Below are positions 1,285-10,337 of a DNA stretch of 64,000 bases, piece after piece. Source of the DNA: Saprospiraceae bacterium (lineage in GTDB: Bacteria > Bacteroidota > Bacteroidia > Chitinophagales > Saprospiraceae); contig JALHQW010000010.1 of the NCBI GenBank assembly GCA_022841745.1, positions 1 through 64,000 of the forward strand, read 5' to 3'. The notes beneath the pieces were generated by a model that worked only from the letters and a program-made list of their open reading frames with translations, was not told the origin of the DNA and did not search any database. The first letter of the stretch is position 1. Every line of letters begins with the position of its first letter. The translations under genes and the position numbers were made by a program.

Positions 1285-2474
1285 AGGAGTGGAAGGAAAA
1301 TAAATTGGGTGAACTAATAGATTTAGGTATTGCCAATCTCCAAACTGGGCCATTTGGAACTATGCTCAATGCCTCAGAATATTCAAGTAATGGAATACCT
1401 GTGATTGCTGTTCAAGACATCGGAGATAATAAGCTTGTGTACCACAAGTTTGTTTATGTCCCTGATGAAACAGCAGAAAGATTGAGCCGATACCGTGTCA
1501 AAGAACATGACATCATCTTTGGTAGAAAAGGTGCTGTAGATAGAAGAGCATTGGTTAAAAAATCCGAGGAGGGTTGGTTGCAAGGTAGTGATTGCATCAG
1601 ACTTCGATTTACGGATGAGATAAACGCTAAATTCATTTCTTACCAATTAGGAAGTGATTCTCATAAAGAATGGATGTTTCAGTTTGCAACTGGTGCAACA
1701 ATGCCATCTTTAAATCAGGAGATTTTAAAATTACTGCCAATTACGCTTCCCTCTCTCCCCGAGCAAACCGCCATCGCCACCGTCTTAAGCAGCTTGGATG
1801 AGAAGATAGACTTACTGCACCGCCAGAACAAGACGCTGGAAGGGCTGGCGGAGGTGGTGTTTCGGGGGTGGTTTGTGGAGGGGGCGAGGAGTGAGTGGGA
1901 AGAGAAAGGATTGGATGAAATAGCAGAATTTCTAAATGGTTTGGCTTGTCAAAAGTACCCGCCTAAGCCAACAGAAGTAGGACTGCCAGTAATTAAAATA
2001 AAAGAAATGAAAGCTGGGATTACGGATGCTTCTGACATTGCGACTAAAGATGTTCCTGAAAAATACATCGTTGAAGATGGTGATATGCTTTTCTCATGGT
2101 CGGGCAGCTTGGATGTTGTTTTGTGGTCAGGAGGGACAGGTGTTCTAAATCAGCATCTTTTCAAGGTTTCTTCAACTGAATTTCCTCAATGGTTCTATTA
2201 TCAATGGGTGAAACAACATTTGATTGACTTCAAAGGAATTGCTGAGGACAAAGCAACGACGATGGGCCACATCCAAAGACACCATCTTTCAGATGCCATT
2301 GTTTTAGTTCCTTCCAAAAAAGAATTAGAAACAATGAATGAAACGATGAACCCTTTATTTGAAAAAATCAAAGCCAACAACTCTCAAATCCGCACGCTGA
2401 CGGGGGTACGGGATGAACTGCTGCCGAAGGTGATGAGTGGGGAGGTGCGGGTGGGGGGTGAAATATTAGGATGA
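1281..2474 (+). CDS. hsdS: Type I restriction-modification specificity subunit HsdS
   Basis: DNA-recognition subunit with two target recognition domains (about residues 1-150 and 200-350), each followed by a conserved helical spacer (about 155-200, with [20 protein letters not shown], and about 355-397, with [20 protein letters not shown]). The two target domains are AT-rich while the spacers are GC-rich like hsdM, the usual sign of target-domain exchange. The start is an ATG overlapping the hsdM stop. At 397 aa it is of normal length and appears intact. Its last ~90 bp (from 2385) recur four times downstream. Confidence 0.95.
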
Positions 2475-2489
2475 GCAAGTGCGACGGGA

Positions 2490-2667
2490 CATCTATCATC
2501 TTGTAACCCCTCGTTTCAACGAGGGGACATGAAAATACCCCCGGCCCACATCTATCATCTTTACAGGGCATCCACATCCAGATGTGATGTTCTGAAAAGA
2601 AGATAGATGTGGGTGTAGCACTTGGCCATCCCCCCGTTGAAACGGCGGGTTACAAGATGATAGATGT
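2490..2667. repeat. Inverted-repeat (MITE-like) element, copy 1
   Basis: The ends ACATCTATCATCTTGTAACC and its reverse complement form about 21-bp terminal inverted repeats (2490-2510 and 2647-2667). Nested inside are a second pair (CCACATCTATCATCTT / AAGATAGATGTGG) and small hairpins (CCTCGTTTCAACGAGG; ACATCCAGATGTGATGT). It starts 15 nt after the hsdS stop. A near-identical copy is at 3919-4098. No transposase is encoded. Confidence 0.8.
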
Positions 2668-2737
2668 GTGCCGGGGCAGTAGCTCACGGAGTATTCTGCT
2701 TTGGCCACGAAACTTTGACATTGAAACCAACACCCAA

Positions 2738-2818
2738 CAAATCCGCACACTGACGGTGGTACGGGATACGCTGCTGCCGAAGGTGATGAGTGGGGAGGTG
2801 CGGGTGGAAATAAAATAA
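2738..2818 (+). repeat. hsdS 3'-end repeat, copy B
   Basis: Matches the last ~80 bp of hsdS (CAAATCCGCAC, then GCTGCTGCCGAAGGTGATGA) with a few substitutions, and ends in its own stop (VRVEIK-stop). It lies in an open frame running from a GTG at 2609 through the inverted-repeat element. It stops 6 nt before the start of the gene at 2825. Confidence 0.9.
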
Positions 2819-2824
2819 CAGCGC

Positions 2825-3322
2825 ATGTTTGAACAATATCAAAAATACTTTGACAAACTCTTGGATAGCTACCAAGAAGAAGGATATAAACTATCCAAAG
2901 AACTTTGGCTGCTTTTGATGCGGCACGGTATCGCGCATCAAATACCGGCAGGGCCAATCAGAAAAACGGAGAACCAATTGGCGGCAATGTCGTTGGCTTG
3001 GATTTATCAGGACTTCATTGTGACTACCCAAAGCAGGTACAGAATGGAGGACATGGAGTATTACTTAGGTGAAATTGGTTTTGAAATTGACCCCGTTGTC
3101 TTAGGGTACATTGCTGGAAAGCATGGAATGGAATACGAACAGCATGATATTTTGTCAGATTTAGTTTGGGATTTGATTTTCAAAGTCTATCGGCCAAGTA
3201 TCAAGAAGACTTTGATTGAAAACCTTGGGCATGAAAAATTAGCTACAATGTTTTCGGATTCCTTGGGGGGAGGGATAATAGAATACATTGCTTGGGAAAG
3301 CTTTGTGAATGAACATTTTTAA
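2825..3322 (+). CDS. Hypothetical protein, first cargo gene in the hsdS-tail array
   Basis: 165-residue, mainly helical, soluble-looking protein that I do not recognise. It has no signal peptide, no membrane segment and no evident catalytic motif; it is rich in Tyr, Trp, Leu and acidic residues. Base composition is more AT-rich than hsdM and hsdR, which fits acquired DNA. It starts with ATG 6 nt after the stop of hsdS-tail copy B and is followed within 10 nt by tail copy C, so it sits as a cassette between two repeats. Position in a restriction locus suggests, but does not show, a defence-related role. Confidence 0.75.
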   Translation: MFEQYQKYFDKLLDSYQEEGYKLSKELWLLLMRHGIAHQIPAGPIRKTENQLAAMSLAWIYQDFIVTTQSRYRMEDMEYYLGEIGFEIDPVVLGYIAGKHGMEYEQHDILSDLVWDLIFKVYRPSIKKTLIENLGHEKLATMFSDSLGGGIIEYIAWESFVNEHF

Positions 3323-3330
3323 TTAAAAAT

Positions 3331-3418
3331 CAACACCCAACAAATCCGAACACTGACGGGGGTACGTGATACGCTGCTGCCGAAGGTGATGAGTGGGGAG
3401 GTGAGTGTGGAAATATAA
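3331..3418 (+). repeat. hsdS 3'-end repeat, copy C
   Basis: Third version of the hsdS tail, beginning with the shared leader CAACACCCAACAAATCCG and ending VSVEI-stop. It separates the cargo genes at 2825 and 3440. No intact hsdS-like gene precedes it. Confidence 0.9.
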
Positions 3419-3439
3419 AACCTTTAAAAACATCAAATC

Positions 3440-3793
3440 ATGATTTTAGGAAATGAAACAACGATTAGAAATGTAAGTGGATTCTCAACTGAAGAACTAA
3501 AAGGAATAATGGACTTTCTACAAGGTGCAGTTTATTGCTGGTGCAAAAACAGACCTGATGAATGGTTTTCTATCCGGAACTTGATGGGGGGTGAGAATTT
3601 TAATTGGAATGGAACACCCCTGCAAGTTTTGTATGACAAACACATCAACAGAGGATTAGATGACGGGGAAGCCAATAATGCTGCTGGCAAGGATTGTGGA
3701 TGGATTCTGAAAAGGGTTATACATGGAGATGAAAACCGGGACTTCGAAACAAAAACGGAGTCTTTGGTCAGGCATTATAAATGGGTGGCTTAA
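3440..3793 (+). CDS. Hypothetical protein, second cargo gene in the hsdS-tail array
   Basis: 117-residue soluble-looking protein that I do not recognise, with several Trp and Cys residues (YCWCKNRPDEWFS near residue 32). No signal peptide or membrane segment. It starts with ATG 21 nt after tail copy C and ends about 10 nt before tail copy D. AT-rich relative to hsdR. It is framed by repeats on both sides like its neighbour, so it was probably acquired as a separate unit. Confidence 0.75.
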   Translation: MILGNETTIRNVSGFSTEELKGIMDFLQGAVYCWCKNRPDEWFSIRNLMGGENFNWNGTPLQVLYDKHINRGLDDGEANNAAGKDCGWILKRVIHGDENRDFETKTESLVRHYKWVA

Positions 3794-3802
3794 TAAATCA
3801 AA

Positions 3803-3904
3803 ACCAACACCCAACAAATCCGCACGCTGACGGGGGTACGGGATACGCTGCTGCCGAAGGTGATGAGTGGGGAGGTGAGGGTGGGGGGTGAAATATTAGG
3901 ATGA
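3803..3904 (+). repeat. hsdS 3'-end repeat, copy D
   Basis: Fourth hsdS tail. Its end (VRVGGEILG-stop and the following GCAAGTGCGACGGG) matches the native hsdS 3' end more closely than copies B, C and E do, and it is followed by the second inverted-repeat element just as the native tail is. The segments 2385-2818 and ~3815-4246 are therefore large direct repeats of each other. Confidence 0.9.
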
Positions 3905-3918
3905 GCAAGTGCGACGGG

Positions 3919-4098
3919 ACATCTATCATCTTGTAACCCCTCGTTTCAACGAGGGACATGAAAATACCCCCGGCCCACATCTATCATCTTTACAGGGCAT
4001 CCACATCCAGATGTGATGTTCTGAAAAGAAGATAGATGAGGGTATGGCACACGGGAACATCCCCCGGTTGAAACCGGGGGTTACAAGATGATAGATGT
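3919..4098. repeat. Inverted-repeat (MITE-like) element, copy 2
   Basis: Near-identical to 2490-2667, with terminal repeats at 3919-3939 and 4078-4098. It differs by small indels in the hairpins (one G fewer after CAACGAGG) and a few substitutions. Same orientation and same flanks (hsdS tail on both sides) as copy 1. Confidence 0.8.
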
Positions 4099-4155
4099 GA
4101 GCGGGGGCAGTTGCATACGGAGTATTCTGCTTTGGCCACTAAACTTTGACTTTGA

Positions 4156-4246
4156 AACCAACACCTAACAAATCCGCACGCTGACGGAGGTACAAGATAC
4201 GCTGCTGCCGAAGGTGATGAGTGGGGAGGTGCGGGTGGAGGTGTAA
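4156..4246 (+). repeat. hsdS 3'-end repeat, copy E
   Basis: Fifth hsdS tail. The leader GACTTTGAAACCAACACC parallels copy B and the end reads VRVEV-stop. It stops 18 nt before the cargo gene at 4265. Confidence 0.9.
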
Positions 4247-4264
4247 AAAATAGGAACAAAAAAC

Positions 4265-4759
4265 ATGAACAAGATGACAAAGAATATAATAGGAGGAACC
4301 ATTGCCACCGTTTTAGGGGGGATACTTTTGTATTTTTTGCTCGATAGGTTGATAAAACCTGCGGTTGAACCAAGCGGGCATGCAGTAGTGAAAACGGATA
4401 CTACCACGCAGTCCCCAGCCTCAAAGGAAGGAAAAGAAACACAACCGACTAAAAGCGGCTTTGAAGCGCAGCCAAAAGGAAATGAGGCAGGAAACAAGCC
4501 ACCAGCGGAAACCCATCAACCCGTGCAGGTGCTATTGATTGTGGATGCAGTGTATTCAAACGCCCTTATCTATGCCGATGGTGTTCAGGTCTCACCAATA
4601 AACAATACGCCGACCGTCAAAGAATTGGAAATACCGTTTACGAAAAACACAATAACTTTGGAAGTCAAAGCAGGAAACAAGTCCTGCGAAAAACTTATAA
4701 CCGTACCTAGAAACTATTTTGACAAACCTTATAAACTCGAAGTGATATGTTCAGAATGA
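4265..4759 (+). CDS. Membrane-anchored protein with PEGA-like domain, third cargo
   Basis: 164 residues. A single membrane segment near residues 9-27 (GTIATVLGGILLYFLL) is followed by a Ser/Thr/Lys/Gln-rich linker and a C-terminal beta-rich domain from about residue 90. That domain resembles PEGA-type surface domains (SNALIYADGVQVSPINNTPT). Two Cys residues (about 140 and 162) could pair. It overlaps the next gene by 4 nt (ATGA), so the two form a translationally coupled pair. The PEGA assignment is by pattern only. Exact function unknown. Confidence 0.7.
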   Translation: MNKMTKNIIGGTIATVLGGILLYFLLDRLIKPAVEPSGHAVVKTDTTTQSPASKEGKETQPTKSGFEAQPKGNEAGNKPPAETHQPVQVLLIVDAVYSNALIYADGVQVSPINNTPTVKELEIPFTKNTITLEVKAGNKSCEKLITVPRNYFDKPYKLEVICSE

Positions 4760-5655
4760 AAACCATCCTATTTGCGCTTCTACAGACCCTAGTAGGCATC
4801 AAAGTAAACGCCCAAGCTGACCTTTGTGACAATTGCTATATCTGGGAGTTTGCCAGTGAAAATGGCGAACGAGACCAAACCACCCGCTTGCTATCCAACG
4901 ATGTGGAGGATATTTTAAGCCTGTATTCCGAATGCAAAGTGTTACAACGTTCCCGCTTTGCCCGCTTGCAAGAGCAAATCAACAATGAAAAGGCGATACA
5001 GTCATTGACAGGTGTTAGTCCTCAGATAAAGACAGAGTTGAAAACGATGCAAGCGAAACGGGTCATTTTCGGTACGGTGAATCGGGATTTCCAGGGGAAT
5101 GTATCGTTACGGTTGTCCTTTGAGAACTTGCAGACCTCACAAGTCAAAAGCAATACTGTGTTCCTGATTAATGATGATTATTACAATTTTGATAAGCGGA
5201 AGGAAAAGTTGAAGGCATTTATTGATTCGTTTGTGAATCCTGATGGGAAAATGCCGACGCCAATTCAATCTACAGAAGGTAACAGTACGACTTCTGAAAA
5301 TAGAATTATTGCGTCTGAAAATATGAGTGAAGTAGAGGTTTCAATTGCAAAAATTGAGCAGAAAGGCACAAAAATGATTTTCCATTTAAATTTTGAAAAT
5401 AAATCATTATCTGAAAAAGTAAGGCAATTCTGGATTGGCTCTACCGGTCACATATTGCTTGACCAAGACGGTGTTCAATATGAAAGTAGTTATGCGAAAA
5501 TAGGCAGTATAAGTGACCAATACGTGAATTTGGTTTATGGCAATGTCGTGAAGGGGCAAGTAGAGTTTACAGTGAGTTCCAATAAAATTACCAAGGTTCA
5601 AATGCTAACAATTGTGTTTTGGAATAATTTTGTTTTTACGAATATCAAAGTATAA
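4756..5655 (+). CDS. Exported protein with a CsgG/FlgO-like N-terminal domain, cargo
   Basis: 299 residues from the ATG at 4756, chosen because it gives an ATGA overlap with the previous stop and a clean signal peptide (MKTILFALLQTLVGIKVNAQ); an ATG at 4747 is the alternative. The section with ECKVLQRSRFARLQEQ and, later, AKRVIFGTVNRD recalls the pattern of CsgG/FlgO-type periplasmic domains (regulator of a named activity, then a G-x-V strand). This is a tentative fold call. The C-terminal half looks like a beta-sandwich with no recognised motif. It pairs with the membrane-anchored gene upstream. It has no stated link to restriction. Confidence 0.65.
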   Translation: MKTILFALLQTLVGIKVNAQADLCDNCYIWEFASENGERDQTTRLLSNDVEDILSLYSECKVLQRSRFARLQEQINNEKAIQSLTGVSPQIKTELKTMQAKRVIFGTVNRDFQGNVSLRLSFENLQTSQVKSNTVFLINDDYYNFDKRKEKLKAFIDSFVNPDGKMPTPIQSTEGNSTTSENRIIASENMSEVEVSIAKIEQKGTKMIFHLNFENKSLSEKVRQFWIGSTGHILLDQDGVQYESSYAKIGSISDQYVNLVYGNVVKGQVEFTVSSNKITKVQMLTIVFWNNFVFTNIKV

Positions 5656-5705: not shown

Positions 5706-5843
5706 ATGGTATCCCTTATCGAGCAATCCGCCATCGAAACCCTGCAAGCGCAGGGCTGGGCGTATAGGAACGGCAAGGACGGTGGTCAGGGCATTTTCAT
5801 TATCTTTGCCATTGAACCAACAAAGGCGACAGCACACCGATGA
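5706..5843 (+). pseudogene. Duplicated 5' fragment of hsdR fused to a short unrelated tail
   Basis: About 64 bp (5717-5780) match hsdR codons from about 7127 (IEQSAIETLQAQGWAY) with only a few substitutions. After NGKD the match ends, and the frame runs another 20 codons to a TGA whose first bases overlap the darT-remnant ATG at 5840. It is an hsdR start copied away from its gene, with the darT/darG pair inserted between the copy and the real hsdR. It cannot encode a restriction subunit. A 45-aa peptide could still be made and coupled to the downstream frame. Confidence 0.8.
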
Positions 5844-6017
5844 GCCTAATCAATCAAAATAGGAAATACTGCTATCGCATCACGCATATCCAGAACCTGC
5901 ACCATATTCTGGAAAAAGGCATTGTTGCCAAAAACTTCCGACCACGTGAAGGGGCTGCTGACCGAAAAAAATATCACTAATATTGCGGTGAATGTCCAAC
6001 CGCTTTACTTTTTTTGA
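5840..6017 (+). pseudogene. darT: darT toxin remnant (internal deletion and frame change)
   Basis: The first ~30 codons encode a DarT-like N-terminus (YRITHIQNLHHILEKGIVAKN). Immediately after, in another frame, the sequence encodes a DarT-like C-terminus (SDHVKGLLTEKNIT, then NVQPLYFF-stop). A whole DarT is roughly 200 residues; here about 58 codons of family sequence remain and the ADP-ribosyltransferase centre is gone. Read in the original frame it stops at 5978-5980. The C-terminal frame stops at 6015-6017, 2 nt before the darG ATG, the spacing expected of an original darTG operon. A deletion of about 450 bp is inferred from the family size. Confidence 0.75.
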
Positions 6018-6019
6018 GC

Positions 6020-7066
6020 ATGATTATTTTCAAAACAGGCGACTTGTTGCAATCCGAAGCGGAGGCTTTGGTGAACACCGTGAACACGGTAGGGGTGATG
6101 GGCAAGGGCATTGCCTTGCAGTTCAAGGAGGCATTCCCGAACAACAACAAGGCGTACATGGCTGCTTGCAAGCGGGGCGAACTGGCACCGGGCAAGCTGT
6201 TCGCCATGTGGGACAGCAATCTGCACAGCGGGCGTAAGTTCCTCATCAATTTCCCCACGAAGGTGCATTGGCGCAACCCTTCCAAGTACGAATACATCGA
6301 GCAGGGGTTGGATGCGCTGAGGGATTTGTTGGTAAAGGAAAACATCAAGAGCGTGGCCATCCCGCCGCTCGGCAGCGGCAATGGCGGCTTGGATTGGGCA
6401 AAGGTGAAGCCCATGATTCAAGCTGCGCTGGGCGATTTGGACGTCGAGGTATTGGTGTACGAACCGAATGCAGCCATCAAGACGGTGCTGCAACAACAGG
6501 AAACAAAGAAAGCCTCGAAATTGACGCCTGCACGGGCGGCATTGCTGTATGCCCTGTTTGCTTTTGAGAGCAAGGGGGAATACAGCAGCCTTTTTGCGGC
6601 CAACAAGCTGGCTTATTTCCTGCAACGGAAAGGACAGCGCCTAAACCTACAATTCAAGCCGCATTATTATGGCCCTTATGCCATTGGTGTGGAAAAGGTG
6701 CTGTATGACATGAACGGCACTTATCTGAAAGGCTTGGAACAAGGTCAGGCCAAACCCTTCGAGCCGCTGCAACTGAATTACTATAAATGGGAGGAGGTCA
6801 ATGATTTTGTCCATCACAAAATGGAATCGGCAGATGCGCTACGGGTCAAGGAATTGATACAGTTTTTGTCGGGATATACTTCTGAGCTTTCGCTTGAAAT
6901 ACTTGCATCCGTGGATTATATATTGGCCGAGCATCCAAATCACTCATTGGAGCAGGTCATGGAGGTCATAGCCGCATGGAACATGCGCAAAAGAGAACTG
7001 TTCAAAAAGGATTTTATAAAATCAGCGTATGATTATTTGAATAATTACCGGGTTGCCATCAATTGA
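6020..7066 (+). CDS. darG: DarG-type macrodomain antitoxin (DNA ADP-ribosyl glycohydrolase)
   Basis: 348 residues. The N-terminal macrodomain (about 1-155; GDLLQSEAEALVNTVNTVGVMGKGIA and IPPLGSGNGGLDW) removes ADP-ribose placed on thymidine in DNA by DarT. The C-terminal region (about 165-348) matches the DarG toxin-binding part. The ATG at 6020 is preferred to the in-frame TTG at 6014, which lies inside the darT stop region. The gene looks intact while its toxin partner is not. A retained orphan antitoxin could protect against DarT toxins of other elements; this is inference. It ends 37 nt before hsdR. Confidence 0.9.
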   Translation: MIIFKTGDLLQSEAEALVNTVNTVGVMGKGIALQFKEAFPNNNKAYMAACKRGELAPGKLFAMWDSNLHSGRKFLINFPTKVHWRNPSKYEYIEQGLDALRDLLVKENIKSVAIPPLGSGNGGLDWAKVKPMIQAALGDLDVEVLVYEPNAAIKTVLQQQETKKASKLTPARAALLYALFAFESKGEYSSLFAANKLAYFLQRKGQRLNLQFKPHYYGPYAIGVEKVLYDMNGTYLKGLEQGQAKPFEPLQLNYYKWEEVNDFVHHKMESADALRVKELIQFLSGYTSELSLEILASVDYILAEHPNHSLEQVMEVIAAWNMRKRELFKKDFIKSAYDYLNNYRVAIN

Positions 7067-7103: not shown

Positions 7104-10100
7104 TTGAAACTCATCACAGAATCCCACATCGAGCAATCCGCCATCGAGACCCTGCAAGCGCAGGGTTGGGCGTATGTGAACGGCAAGGACATCTCGCCGG
7201 AGGGCATGGCCTGTGAGCGAGAAAGTTTCAGTCAAATCATCCTCACCGGGCGGCTGCGGGAGGCCGTCGCTGCCATCAATCCGCATATCCCGGCGGATGC
7301 ACGGGAGGCGGCCATCCAAAAGGTGCAGCGCATCAATTTGCCCGATTTGTTGCACAACAACGAGGAGTTCCACCGCCTGCTGATAGAGAAGGTGAAGATA
7401 CCCTACCAGGAAAACGGCTACGAGCGCAGCCACGAGGTGGCGTTGGTGGATTTTGAGCATCCGGAGAAGAACCAGTACCTCATCGTCAACCAGTTTACCA
7501 TCATTGAGAACAACCACCAAAAGCGCCCGGACGTGCTGCTCTTCGTCAACGGCCTGCCGCTGGTGGTGATGGAACTGAAAAATGCCACCGACGAGAACGC
7601 CACCATCCGCAGCGCTTACCAGCAAATACAGACCTACAAGTCGCTCATTCCCTCTCTGTTCACCTACAATGCCGTCTGCATCCTCAGCGATGGGCACGAG
7701 TGCCGGGCGGGCAGCGTCACCGCTGGACTCAGCCGCTACATGAACTGGAAGACGGCGGATGGCGTGAAGGAAGCGTCAAGGTTCCAGCCGCCCATGTATG
7801 TGCTGCTGCAAGGGATGTTGCAGCCTGCCACGCTGTTGGATTTGGTGCGGAATTTCATCGTTTTTGAAAAGACAAAAAAGGAAGACGCCAAAACGGGCGT
7901 GATACAAATAGAGACCACGAAGAAGCTTGCAGCCTATCACCAATATTACGCCGTGAACAAGGCCGTGCAGTCCACCATCGCCGCATCGGGCGCACATGGC
8001 GACAAGAAGGGTGGCGTGGTCTGGCATACGCAAGGGAGCGGGAAGAGCCTGAGCATGGTCTTCTACTCCGGCAAGCTCATCACCGCCACGGCGATGCGGA
8101 ACCCTACCATCGTTGTCATCACCGACCGCAATGATTTGGACGACCAGTTGTTCGACACTTTTGCGGCTTCCGTACAGTTGTTGCGGCAGGAGCCAGTACA
8201 GGCAAAAGACCGGGGACATTTGAAGGAACTGCTGCAAGTGGCCAGCGGCGGCATCGTGTTTACCACCATCCAGAAGTTTTTACCGGAAGGCAATGGGTCG
8301 GTCTATGAGACGCTGTCCGAGCGGAAGAACATCGTGGTGGTGGCCGACGAAGCCCACCGCACGCAGTACGGTTTCGAGGCCAAGCTGGTGGACGAGCGGG
8401 ACAAGGAGACGAAGGAGGTCATCGGCAAGCGCATTGCCTACGGCTTCGCCAAATACATGCGGGATGCGCTGCCCAATGCTACCTATATCGGCTTCACGGG
8501 CACGCCCATCGAGGGCACGGACGTGAACACGCCGCAGGTGTTCGGGCAGTACGTGGATGTGTATGACATCTCGCAGGCCGTGGCGGACAAGGCCACGGTG
8601 CGGATATACTACGAAAGCCGCCTCGCCAAGGTGAACCTCGACGAGGAGGGCCAGCGGCTCATCGAGGAGTTCGACGCCGAACTGGAGCAGGACGAAGAAG
8701 TGACCGAGCGCCAAAAGGCCAAGGCCAAATGGACGAAGCTGGAGGCCATCGTCGGCAATGAGGAGCGCATCCGAATATTGGCAAAAGACATGGTGACGCA
8801 TTTTGAAAAACGCCAAACGGTGTTCGAGGGCAAGGCGATGATAGTGGCCATGAGCCGCCGCATCGCCGCCGATATCTACCGGGAAATCACGGCCCTGCGC
8901 CCCGAATGGCACAGCGACGATTTGACCAAGGGCGTCCTCAAGGTGGTGATGACCGCCAGCAGCAGCGACGGCCCCGATATTGCGAAGCACCACACCACCA
9001 AGCAGCAGCGCCGGGATTTGGCGGAGCGCATGAAGGACGAACACGACGACATGAAAATCGTCATCGTGCGGGACATGTGGCTCACGGGCTTCGACGCCCC
9101 CTGCCTCAACACCATGTACGTGGACAAGCCCATGCGGGGCCACAGCCTGATGCAGGCCATCGCACGGGTGAACAGGGTGTTCAAGGACAAGCCCGGCGGC
9201 CTCATCGTGGACTACCTCGGCATCGGCACGGATTTGAAAAAGGCGCTGTCGTTCTACAGCGAAGCGGGCGGCAAGGGCGACCCAGCCGAGAGCATCGAGC
9301 GGGCTTACGGGGCGTTCATGGAGAAGCTGGAAGTGGTGCGGCAATTTTTCAACGAGGAAAGCCACAGCCATGTGGACATCCTGCGGGAGGTGGCGGATTC
9401 CTATTATTTGAACAGCTACAAGTTCAATTATCGCCGCTTTTTCCAGGTGGGTTCGAGGGAAAAACTGTCCATCATCCTGCAAGCAGAGGAGCATATCCTG
9501 GGCTTGAAGGAGGGGAAGGATAGGTTCATCCGGGAAGTCGGGCTGTTGGGGCAGGCGCTGTCCCTCTGTGTGACCAAGGACGAAGTGCAGCCTTATTTGG
9601 AGGACGTGGCGTTTTTTCAGGCGGTGAAGGCACGGCTGATGAAATTCGAGGGCGGCAGCGGCGGCAAGTCGGATGTGCAGATAGAGACGGCCATCAAGCA
9701 AATCGTGGACGAGGCGCTGAGCAGCGACCAGGTGATTGACATCTTCGACGCTGCCGGGATTGCGAAGCCGGACATCAGCGGGCTGGAAATCCTGTCCGAC
9801 GAGTTCCTGCTGGAAGTGCAGGGCATGAAGCACCAGAACATCGCCCTCGAACTGCTGAAAAAAATCCTGAACGACGAACTTAAAATCCGCACGAAGACCA
9901 ACCTCGTGAAAAGCCGCAAGCTGTTGGAGATGCTGCAATCGGCCATCAAGCGCTACCAGAACAACCTGCTCACCACAGCTGAAATTATCCAAGAACTTAT
10001 CCGCATCGCCAAGGACATCAAGGAGTCGGACAAGGAGGGCGAGCGCCTCGGCCTCAGCACGGAGGAGGTGGCATTCTACAATGCCCTCGAAGTAAATGAA

Positions 10101-10337
10101 AGCGCCGTGCAGGTACTGGGCGACGAGATTCTGAAGGACATAGCCAAGGAAATTGCCGACAAGGTGCGGGCCAACACAACGATTGACTGGACGATACGGG
10201 AGAGCGCAAGGGCAAGGCTAATGGTCATTGTCCGCCGGACGCTGAACAAGTATGGCTATCCGCCAGATATGCAGTTGAAGGCGGTGGAGACGGTGTTGAG
10301 GCAGGCGGAGTTGATGGCGGGGGGGCTGATGGAGTGA
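7104..10337 (+). CDS. hsdR: Type I restriction enzyme HsdR (endonuclease and translocase)
   Basis: 1077 residues. It cleaves unmethylated DNA after ATP-driven translocation. An N-terminal PD-(D/E)XK nuclease (DVLLFVNGLPLVVMELKN, about residues 140-158) is followed by superfamily 2 helicase motifs: Walker A TQGSGKS near 310, DEAH near 416, GFTGTP near 463 and the RVNRVF motif VI region near 690. A C-terminal helical domain contacts the methylase core. The start is a TTG at 7104, with no clear Shine-Dalgarno sequence. Alternative in-frame starts exist, but HIEQSAIETL is usually very N-terminal in this family. It is GC-rich like hsdM, unlike the cargo genes between them. Confidence 0.95.
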   Translation: MKLITESHIEQSAIETLQAQGWAYVNGKDISPEGMACERESFSQIILTGRLREAVAAINPHIPADAREAAIQKVQRINLPDLLHNNEEFHRLLIEKVKIPYQENGYERSHEVALVDFEHPEKNQYLIVNQFTIIENNHQKRPDVLLFVNGLPLVVMELKNATDENATIRSAYQQIQTYKSLIPSLFTYNAVCILSDGHECRAGSVTAGLSRYMNWKTADGVKEASRFQPPMYVLLQGMLQPATLLDLVRNFIVFEKTKKEDAKTGVIQIETTKKLAAYHQYYAVNKAVQSTIAASGAHGDKKGGVVWHTQGSGKSLSMVFYSGKLITATAMRNPTIVVITDRNDLDDQLFDTFAASVQLLRQEPVQAKDRGHLKELLQVASGGIVFTTIQKFLPEGNGSVYETLSERKNIVVVADEAHRTQYGFEAKLVDERDKETKEVIGKRIAYGFAKYMRDALPNATYIGFTGTPIEGTDVNTPQVFGQYVDVYDISQAVADKATVRIYYESRLAKVNLDEEGQRLIEEFDAELEQDEEVTERQKAKAKWTKLEAIVGNEERIRILAKDMVTHFEKRQTVFEGKAMIVAMSRRIAADIYREITALRPEWHSDDLTKGVLKVVMTASSSDGPDIAKHHTTKQQRRDLAERMKDEHDDMKIVIVRDMWLTGFDAPCLNTMYVDKPMRGHSLMQAIARVNRVFKDKPGGLIVDYLGIGTDLKKALSFYSEAGGKGDPAESIERAYGAFMEKLEVVRQFFNEESHSHVDILREVADSYYLNSYKFNYRRFFQVGSREKLSIILQAEEHILGLKEGKDRFIREVGLLGQALSLCVTKDEVQPYLEDVAFFQAVKARLMKFEGGSGGKSDVQIETAIKQIVDEALSSDQVIDIFDAAGIAKPDISGLEILSDEFLLEVQGMKHQNIALELLKKILNDELKIRTKTNLVKSRKLLEMLQSAIKRYQNNLLTTAEIIQELIRIAKDIKESDKEGERLGLSTEEVAFYNALEVNESAVQVLGDEILKDIAKEIADKVRANTTIDWTIRESARARLMVIVRRTLNKYGYPPDMQLKAVETVLRQAELMAGGLME

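Follow-up and report, generated by a model that had tools for sequence, protein, structure and literature searches.

Stranded hsdS and hsdR gene ends between cargo modules in a Saprospiraceae type I restriction operon and its relatives

The first 64,000 bases of contig JALHQW010000010.1 from a Saprospiraceae bacterium (the window; contig bases 1–64000, within a contig of 174,675 bases and a genome of 8.43 Mb) open inside a type I restriction operon, hsdM-hsdS-hsdR, in which the slot between hsdS and hsdR holds non-hsd genes, all in operon orientation. These cargo genes are accompanied by short orphan copies of the last hsdS codons (tails) and by one copy of the first hsdR codons (a head), and similar gene-end joints were found in related loci. 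We consider it probable that modules which once lay singly between the end of hsdS and the start of hsdR were later put in series, and that the tails and heads, here called scars, are the joints left between them. Defence genes in the hsdS-hsdR slot are already known; the scars seem to be the new part.

A first-pass annotation had described the hsdS 3′ end as present five times, each copy closed by its own stop codon; repeat comparison bore out both points and placed all five, in direct orientation, in the region 2361–4248. The tail family spans 104 nt, with copies starting at 2361, 2714, 3317, 3791, and 4145 that are 74–88% identical to the reference copy, and the 69-nt coding cores (from 2385, 2738, 3341, 3815, and 4169) show pairwise identities of 88–96%. 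Copy 1 is the 3′ end (2361–2474) of hsdS itself, a 397-aa gene at 1281–2474 on the forward strand (Pfam Methylase_S, 2.6e-27) that is uninterrupted, the scars sitting between cargo modules. The orphan copies, likewise on the forward strand, occupy 2720–2818 (copy 2) and 3323–3418 (copy 3), both delimited by the repeat family and tail comparison, 3797–3904 (copy 4), and 4154–4246 (copy 5, in which a TAA lies in frame close to the beginning); their extent as first described needs revision, since they start about 30 codons before the hsdS stop. Cargo genes do follow closely on the tail stops of copies 2, 3, and 5, starting after 6, 21, and 18 nt; what follows copies 1 and 4 is no gene but a palindromic repeat of ~180 nt. 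The blocks 2385–2818 and ~3815–4246 are indeed direct repeats of each other (92.4% over 449 nt). The genes concerned, all forward, are module 1 (2825–3322, 165 aa), module 2 (3440–3793, 117 aa), and module 3, with a first gene of 164 aa (4265–4759) and a second of 302 aa (4747–5655); modules 1 and 3 matched no family in Pfam, PADLOC, or NCBIfam, and module 2 gave no noteworthy match in the same three collections.

A copy of the hsdR 5′ end that belongs to the same phenomenon had been overlooked. This orphan head lies at 5711–5780 on the forward strand (70 nt, 91% identical to 7121–7190) and scores 27.8 bits with a hidden Markov model (HMM) of the HsdR head, bases 5712–5780 corresponding to model positions 7–29. 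Module 3 thus has an hsdS tail on its left and an hsdR head on its right, just as a lone cargo would in a simple hsdS-cargo-hsdR operon. Beyond the head the array runs on through a DarT fragment and darG to hsdR at 7104. A genome-wide search for the tail, which the first-pass annotation had proposed, returned no other copy in the 8.43-Mb genome, the next-best matches covering only 22–26 nt (E 0.2 and 0.8). Tail DNA was matched in three of 60 genomes (the bacterium's own and relatives), namely its own and, once each, two genomes from the same order, and in none of 13 genomes of the same genus.

To survey relatives, the best 80 of 131 loci from an HsdR similarity search were kept, and relatives were scanned with HMMs for the HsdS tail and the HsdR head. 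Joints in which both gene ends meet were recovered there: in L087 (twice) and in L093, a single short open reading frame (ORF) carries an HsdR start and an HsdS end in frame, each recognized by its HMM, and in L032 the first 29 nt of the scar ORF are identical to that locus's own hsdR and lead into an in-frame hsdS tail. The scars of L048 and L147 are probably head-tail fusions too, their head part being recognized by eye, and L035 has both parts in different frames. In the first scar of L087, ~90 nt correspond to that locus's hsdR, after which the sequence changes abruptly to that of the locus's hsdS; in L041 the place of the head is taken by an N-terminal fragment that groups with RhuM proteins and has no Pfam match. 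All other scars are a head alone or a tail alone. The breakpoints are ragged, with about 9 to 41 hsdR codons retained (once about 85, in L097/L140) and about 10 to 34 hsdS codons, so that no fixed site is evident. The idea that the hsdS 3′ end acts as an integration point restored by each acquisition stood in part: the hsdS end does recur at module borders, and modules vary among relatives, but a role of the hsdS end alone is not supported, since duplication extends to the hsdR 5′ end and several scars are hsdR-head/hsdS-tail fusions. A special site at the hsdS end alone was rejected on the duplicated hsdR starts and the ragged junctions.

The duplicated material is specific to the gene ends among the segments sampled. 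When 90 intervals were scanned with models of HsdR, HsdM, and HsdS segments (at least 14 bits), HsdR residues 1–60 gave 13 matches in nine loci and the last 50 HsdS residues 16 matches in 12 loci; ten other HsdR segments gave none, save two matches to the C-terminal one (L143, L160), and seven HsdM segments gave none. Apart from the head of ~85 codons, the slots yielded no longer piece of hsdS or hsdR, and an origin of the tails from decayed full-length hsdS genes is disfavoured by the near-absence of sampled interior segments from the slots. Scars often keep a native-like spacing, starting near an upstream stop and stopping near the next start. Among 13 head rows, two of which are one piece in two frames, the upstream stop lies at most 10 nt from the head start in nine (the others at −102, −51, −39, and +16), compared with a median of −4 for native hsdR; among 18 tail rows, the next start lies −3 to +35 nt from the tail stop in 12 (the others at −37, 78, 91, and 112, and two with none), compared with a native hsdS stop-to-next-start median of 6.5 (n = 90).

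Scars were concentrated in long intervals. The 83 sources of a first set (L008–L089 and the window) comprised 54 complete loci with an hsdR head above 70 bits and hsdS on one contig (52 found through HsdR similarity, the window, and L009), 21 in which no hsdS was found, and eight without such a head. The tail HMM found orphan tails in L032, L034, L035, L037, L039, L041, L046, L048, L053, L073, and L087, those of L034, L035, L037, and L039 scoring 12–20 bits, and the head HMM found orphan heads in L011, L017, L021 (cut by the contig start), L035, L036, L053, L087, and the window. Scars were present in 11 of 25 intervals longer than 2 kb and in none of 29 shorter ones (p 4.7e-5), with the 2-kb cut set after the data had been seen and interval length alone also separating scar loci in a rank test. 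Without the window and L009 the counts were 10/24 and 0/28, and with cut-offs of 20 and 30 bits the long intervals gave 9/25 and 7/25, the short ones 0/29 each time. A larger set of 106 loci was drawn from 155 sources, namely L010–L169 and the window without L090 and the duplicates L103, L110, L111, L113, and L125; loci with no head in an ORF of at least 300 aa, no hsdS tail, or a gap above 9 kb were left out, and L126 and L129, which have orphan tails, fall outside this count. Its 231.5 kb of intervals held 31 orphan matches (18 tails and 13 heads in 18 loci), all on the operon strand, in a set that is enriched, L091–L101 having been fetched for orphan matches and L140 also having one, and in which L097/L140 (same layout) and L141/L147 (a near-identical 3.2-kb stretch) may not be independent. 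No tail or head match of at least 11 bits was found on the minus strand of these intervals, and 1,034 kb of flanks held two weak orphan matches against the 31 (at 20 bits or more, 0 against 25). A chance origin of the tails was excluded on the weak next-best matches in the genome together with the empty minus strand. Similar joints of hsd gene ends appear in distantly related microbes.

Clustering of 115 cargo proteins (clusters labelled C1 and so on) revealed units that recur between scars or as sole cargo. The pair C4-C8 lies between two heads in L011 and is the sole cargo of L082, C22 follows heads in L087 and is the sole cargo of L075, C13-C3 stands between tail and head in L087 and before a head in L036, with C3 alone in L028, and C14-C6 follows a head in L036 and ends L073; C18-C19 is common to L048 and L070, and C15-C16 to L037 and L050. 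A single layout common to all relatives, which would have spoken against repeated acquisition, was not found, as layouts differ between loci. Named cargo in relatives includes PDDEXK_3, RhuM, DUF6978, DUF1828/1829, the YhcG nuclease, AAA_21 with RloB (RloB in L032), AAA with subtilase, GIY-YIG, DUF3800, DUF488, and an IrrE-like protein beside a weak HigB-like match. Cargo of a known defence or toxin-antitoxin type is represented by RhuM, RloB, PDDEXK_3, and YhcG in relatives and, within the window slot, by darG and the DarT fragment. Modules 1 and 2, each traced in 150 genomes of the family, were found only in their own genome; no relative of either was confirmed in viral contigs, and none of module 1 was found in plasmids. 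HsdR in viral contigs was represented by two distant loci, which were not used. The annotations of six plasmid loci place 0–3 small genes in the hsdS-hsdR interval, and in four of these loci genes also separate hsdM from hsdS.

Taken as a slot for defence-type gene modules, the hsdS-hsdR interval could have been filled in three steps. Recombination within the conserved hsd genes would swap slot contents between related loci; the first hsdR codons of one allele would then be joined illegitimately to the last hsdS codons of another, leaving two modules in a row with an [hsdR head / hsdS tail] scar, of which the joint is seen; and the scars, as direct repeats, would allow unequal homologous crossing-over to lengthen, shorten, and shuffle the array, a step suggested by the repeated L087 junctions and the duplicated window block. 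Selection for tight translation may keep the scars in place. As to the origin of the tails, 14 of the 18 orphan tails were long enough for a 51-nt comparison with the hsdS ends of 106 loci. Of the ten tails from outside the window, three were nearest the resident hsdS (ties included) and seven were nearer that of another locus; all four window tails were nearest their own hsdS. Joins between alleles or a later exchange of hsdS fit the tails outside the window better than local copying does, although 51 nt is a short stretch.

In the window, copy 4 with its 3′ flank and the repeat that follows match copy 1 and its repeat (100/104 and 169/181 nt), and copy 5 and its 5′ flank match those of copy 2 (65/69 and 62/70). 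The palindromic repeat, resembling a miniature inverted-repeat transposable element, lies at 2489–2667 and 3919–4098 with no strand assigned and has relatives at 27 further places in the genome by our count. The copied blocks diverge by about 4–11%, near or above the 5% that separates the window from the sibling locus L067 in hsdM and hsdR, so that crossing-over of two related arrays is no less likely a source than a recent local duplication; copy 4 would be the product of such a crossover. All four orphan tails have ACGCTG where copy 1 has GAACTG, a difference suggestive of a later exchange of the resident hsdS end.

Several observations weigh against a history of serial joining. L067, the closest sibling (95%), has an interior quite unlike that of the window, no head precedes any of window tails 2–5, and among the loci compared none was seen both before and after an event. 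Elsewhere, units adjoin with no scar detected between them (C1/C7 in L085, C1/C15-C16 in L050, and C2/C18-C19 in L070), 14 of the 25 intervals above 2 kb have no detectable scar, and L036, L037, and L039 were counted on single matches of 16–20 bits. Longer intervals also offer more room for chance matches, though the minus strand gave none. The in-frame share of five of six independent joints, two of them judged by eye, is biased by the fact that short heads are recognized in frame, and the six other HsdS segments of the scan, which gave no match save one (HsdS 170–219, L032), are weak controls because they cover variable domains. Finally, the last module of L087 has a weak Y1-transposase match (E 9.8e-4, below the cut-off), so that an enzyme could still play a part at some loci.

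Other histories must be weighed against the same evidence. Two complete hsd operons with different cargo could have stood in tandem and collapsed through deletions that began in the first operon's hsdR and ended in the second operon's hsdS; this would give the same joint without any join between alleles, and the head of ~85 codons in L097/L140 could be a longer remnant of such an operon. It would demand, however, strong trimming of every fragment to the gene ends, interior fragments of the kinds sampled are nearly absent from the slots, and a second hsdS-tail or hsdR-head ORF above 150 aa was found in none of the fetched stretches of 105 loci (the window left out), so that we regard a tandem collapse as fairly unlikely. 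An inverting hsdS locus was rejected, the window copies all lying on one strand and no second long hsdS occurring in the window or in the 105 relatives. Slippage or local duplication of the resident hsdS tail, with cargo arriving independently and tails kept only for translation coupling, would suit the four window tails, nearest their own hsdS among 106, and the 12 of 18 tail stops that lie close to the next start; it would yield neither hsdR-head/hsdS-tail fusions nor units recurring between scars, and outside the window another hsdS was nearer in most of the tails compared, which leaves it quite improbable.

Genomic islands that use gene 3′ ends leave end duplications of this kind, and the tails could accordingly be read as attachment sites duplicated by site-specific or transposase-driven insertion at the hsdS end. 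The weak Y1-transposase match in the L087 slot favours this, and an ORF in the L093 slot, which has no Pfam match, is one that we take to be like the transposases of repetitive extragenic palindromic elements. The genes between the window's hsdS and hsdR match no recombinase family, in keeping with the earlier suggestion of loading without an integrase, for which no family match was found either, and with hsdR 5′ ends duplicated as well and junctions ragged, such insertion seems very improbable. An assembly or binning artefact is scarcely credible: many relatives are metagenome-assembled genomes, but the window copies differ in sequence and lie within one contig of 174,675 bases, and scars were also seen in G536 and G598, genomes listed with one contig; as L093 and L147 lie in genomes so listed, their scars are not binning artefacts. 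Serial joining of once-single modules could also be extended to an integrase-free cassette system. Modules would leave as circles closed by the hsdR-head-to-hsdS-tail joint that the scars show and be taken up at other hsd loci through homologous crossover at one or the other gene end; type I operons of different phyla would trade defence modules via their own gene ends, and scar mini-ORFs would be kept to carry ribosomes between modules. We hold this extension to be unlikely.

The remaining parts of the window locus, all forward, are hsdM (1–1284, its 5′ end cut by the contig start; Pfam N6_Mtase, 3.9e-101), a 46-aa N-terminal fragment of DarT (5840–5980; PADLOC DarT 1.7e-6, Pfam DarT 5.9e-4 and below the cut-off), a full-length darG antitoxin gene (6014–7066; PADLOC 2.3e-118 and NCBIfam NF048014 5e-119, both for 6020–7066), and hsdR (7104–10337, 1077 aa; Pfam HSDR_N, SWI2_SNF2, and T1RH-like_C). 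Within 5840–7066, full-length darG thus stands beside a DarT reduced to an N-terminal fragment ORF. By eye, hsdM appears to contain two in-frame palindrome-rich insertions, at 301–411 and about 1006–1047. The 95% identical sibling stretch L067 (1–12047) begins at the same hsdM base as the window contig and keeps only the hsdM start, up to about base 318, and the part of hsdR that begins at window base 8091; these enclose a UvrD-helicase/PDDEXK gene, a RadC gene, an N6_N4 methylase, and a ResIII gene.

Further observations were made at individual loci. On another contig of the bacterium's own genome (C71; L090, 8162–9201), a 70-aa ORF and a PIN-domain toxin-type gene lie between two hsdR heads that share their 3′ junction; the 19 kb fetched there yielded neither an hsdS tail nor a long hsdR. 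The HsdS of L093 (8281–9975, 564 aa) runs on in frame for ~205 residues beyond its tail, an extension that has no Pfam match and may be cargo fused to HsdS. Two similar hsdR-head pieces that lie no more than ~150 nt from the ends of two contigs of genome G736 (L094, 10105–10185; L095, 8846–8926) are perhaps one array broken in assembly. In L098, two short ORFs (3357–3473 and 5715–5891) end in the tail of a different HsdS type (RDWLLPMLMNGQVKVE) and may represent this phenomenon in a further family of type I systems. In cyanobacterial plasmid type I loci (L175–L177 and L179), a second slot, between hsdM and hsdS, also holds small genes, toxin-antitoxin-like or of other kinds.

These operons may record how defence genes are collected without a dedicated enzyme. 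Scars that keep both parental breakpoints would make the acquisition of modules readable from sequence, help to order the joins, and suggest a recombination route that needs no dedicated enzyme; they would also delimit modules, offering a way to find new defence genes (for instance the three window modules), and explain short hsdS- or hsdR-like ORFs in annotations. Among open-licence PubMed Central papers, no account of hsd scars was recognized. In the portions covered of four reports, DarTG2 lies between hsdS and hsdR at a site termed a potential recombination hotspot (PMC12255303), prrC is embedded in the EcoprrI type I operon (PMC3874165), tgvAB in a type I operon (PMC11411939), and rlo/mlo genes in a Campylobacter type I operon (PMC5183652). 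The kind of operon is the same as here, as is the slot for DarTG2 and rlo; those portions say nothing of duplicated ends of hsdS or hsdR, nor of fusion scars (PMC12255303, PMC3874165, PMC11411939, PMC5183652), whereas the loci described here carry several modules in series with joints. Related cargo is present in our loci as darG with the DarT fragment and as RloB in L032. Phase-variable inverting hsdS loci share rearrangement of a type I locus at hsdS repeats, but the repeats here are direct and consist of the last codons alone, and no second long hsdS was found. Islands inserted at gene ends (att sites) differ in that the junctions described here are ragged at both the hsdS and the hsdR end, with no constant core evident, and the window slot has no integrase match. 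Integron gene-cassette arrays consist of serial modules parted by short repeats. Arrays of the window type resemble them in this and in having units that recur in other loci, and differ in that the window slot genes have no integrase match and the repeats consist of gene ends whose junctions are ragged. Homology-facilitated illegitimate recombination makes one junction by homology and the other illegitimately; it would give joints like these scars.

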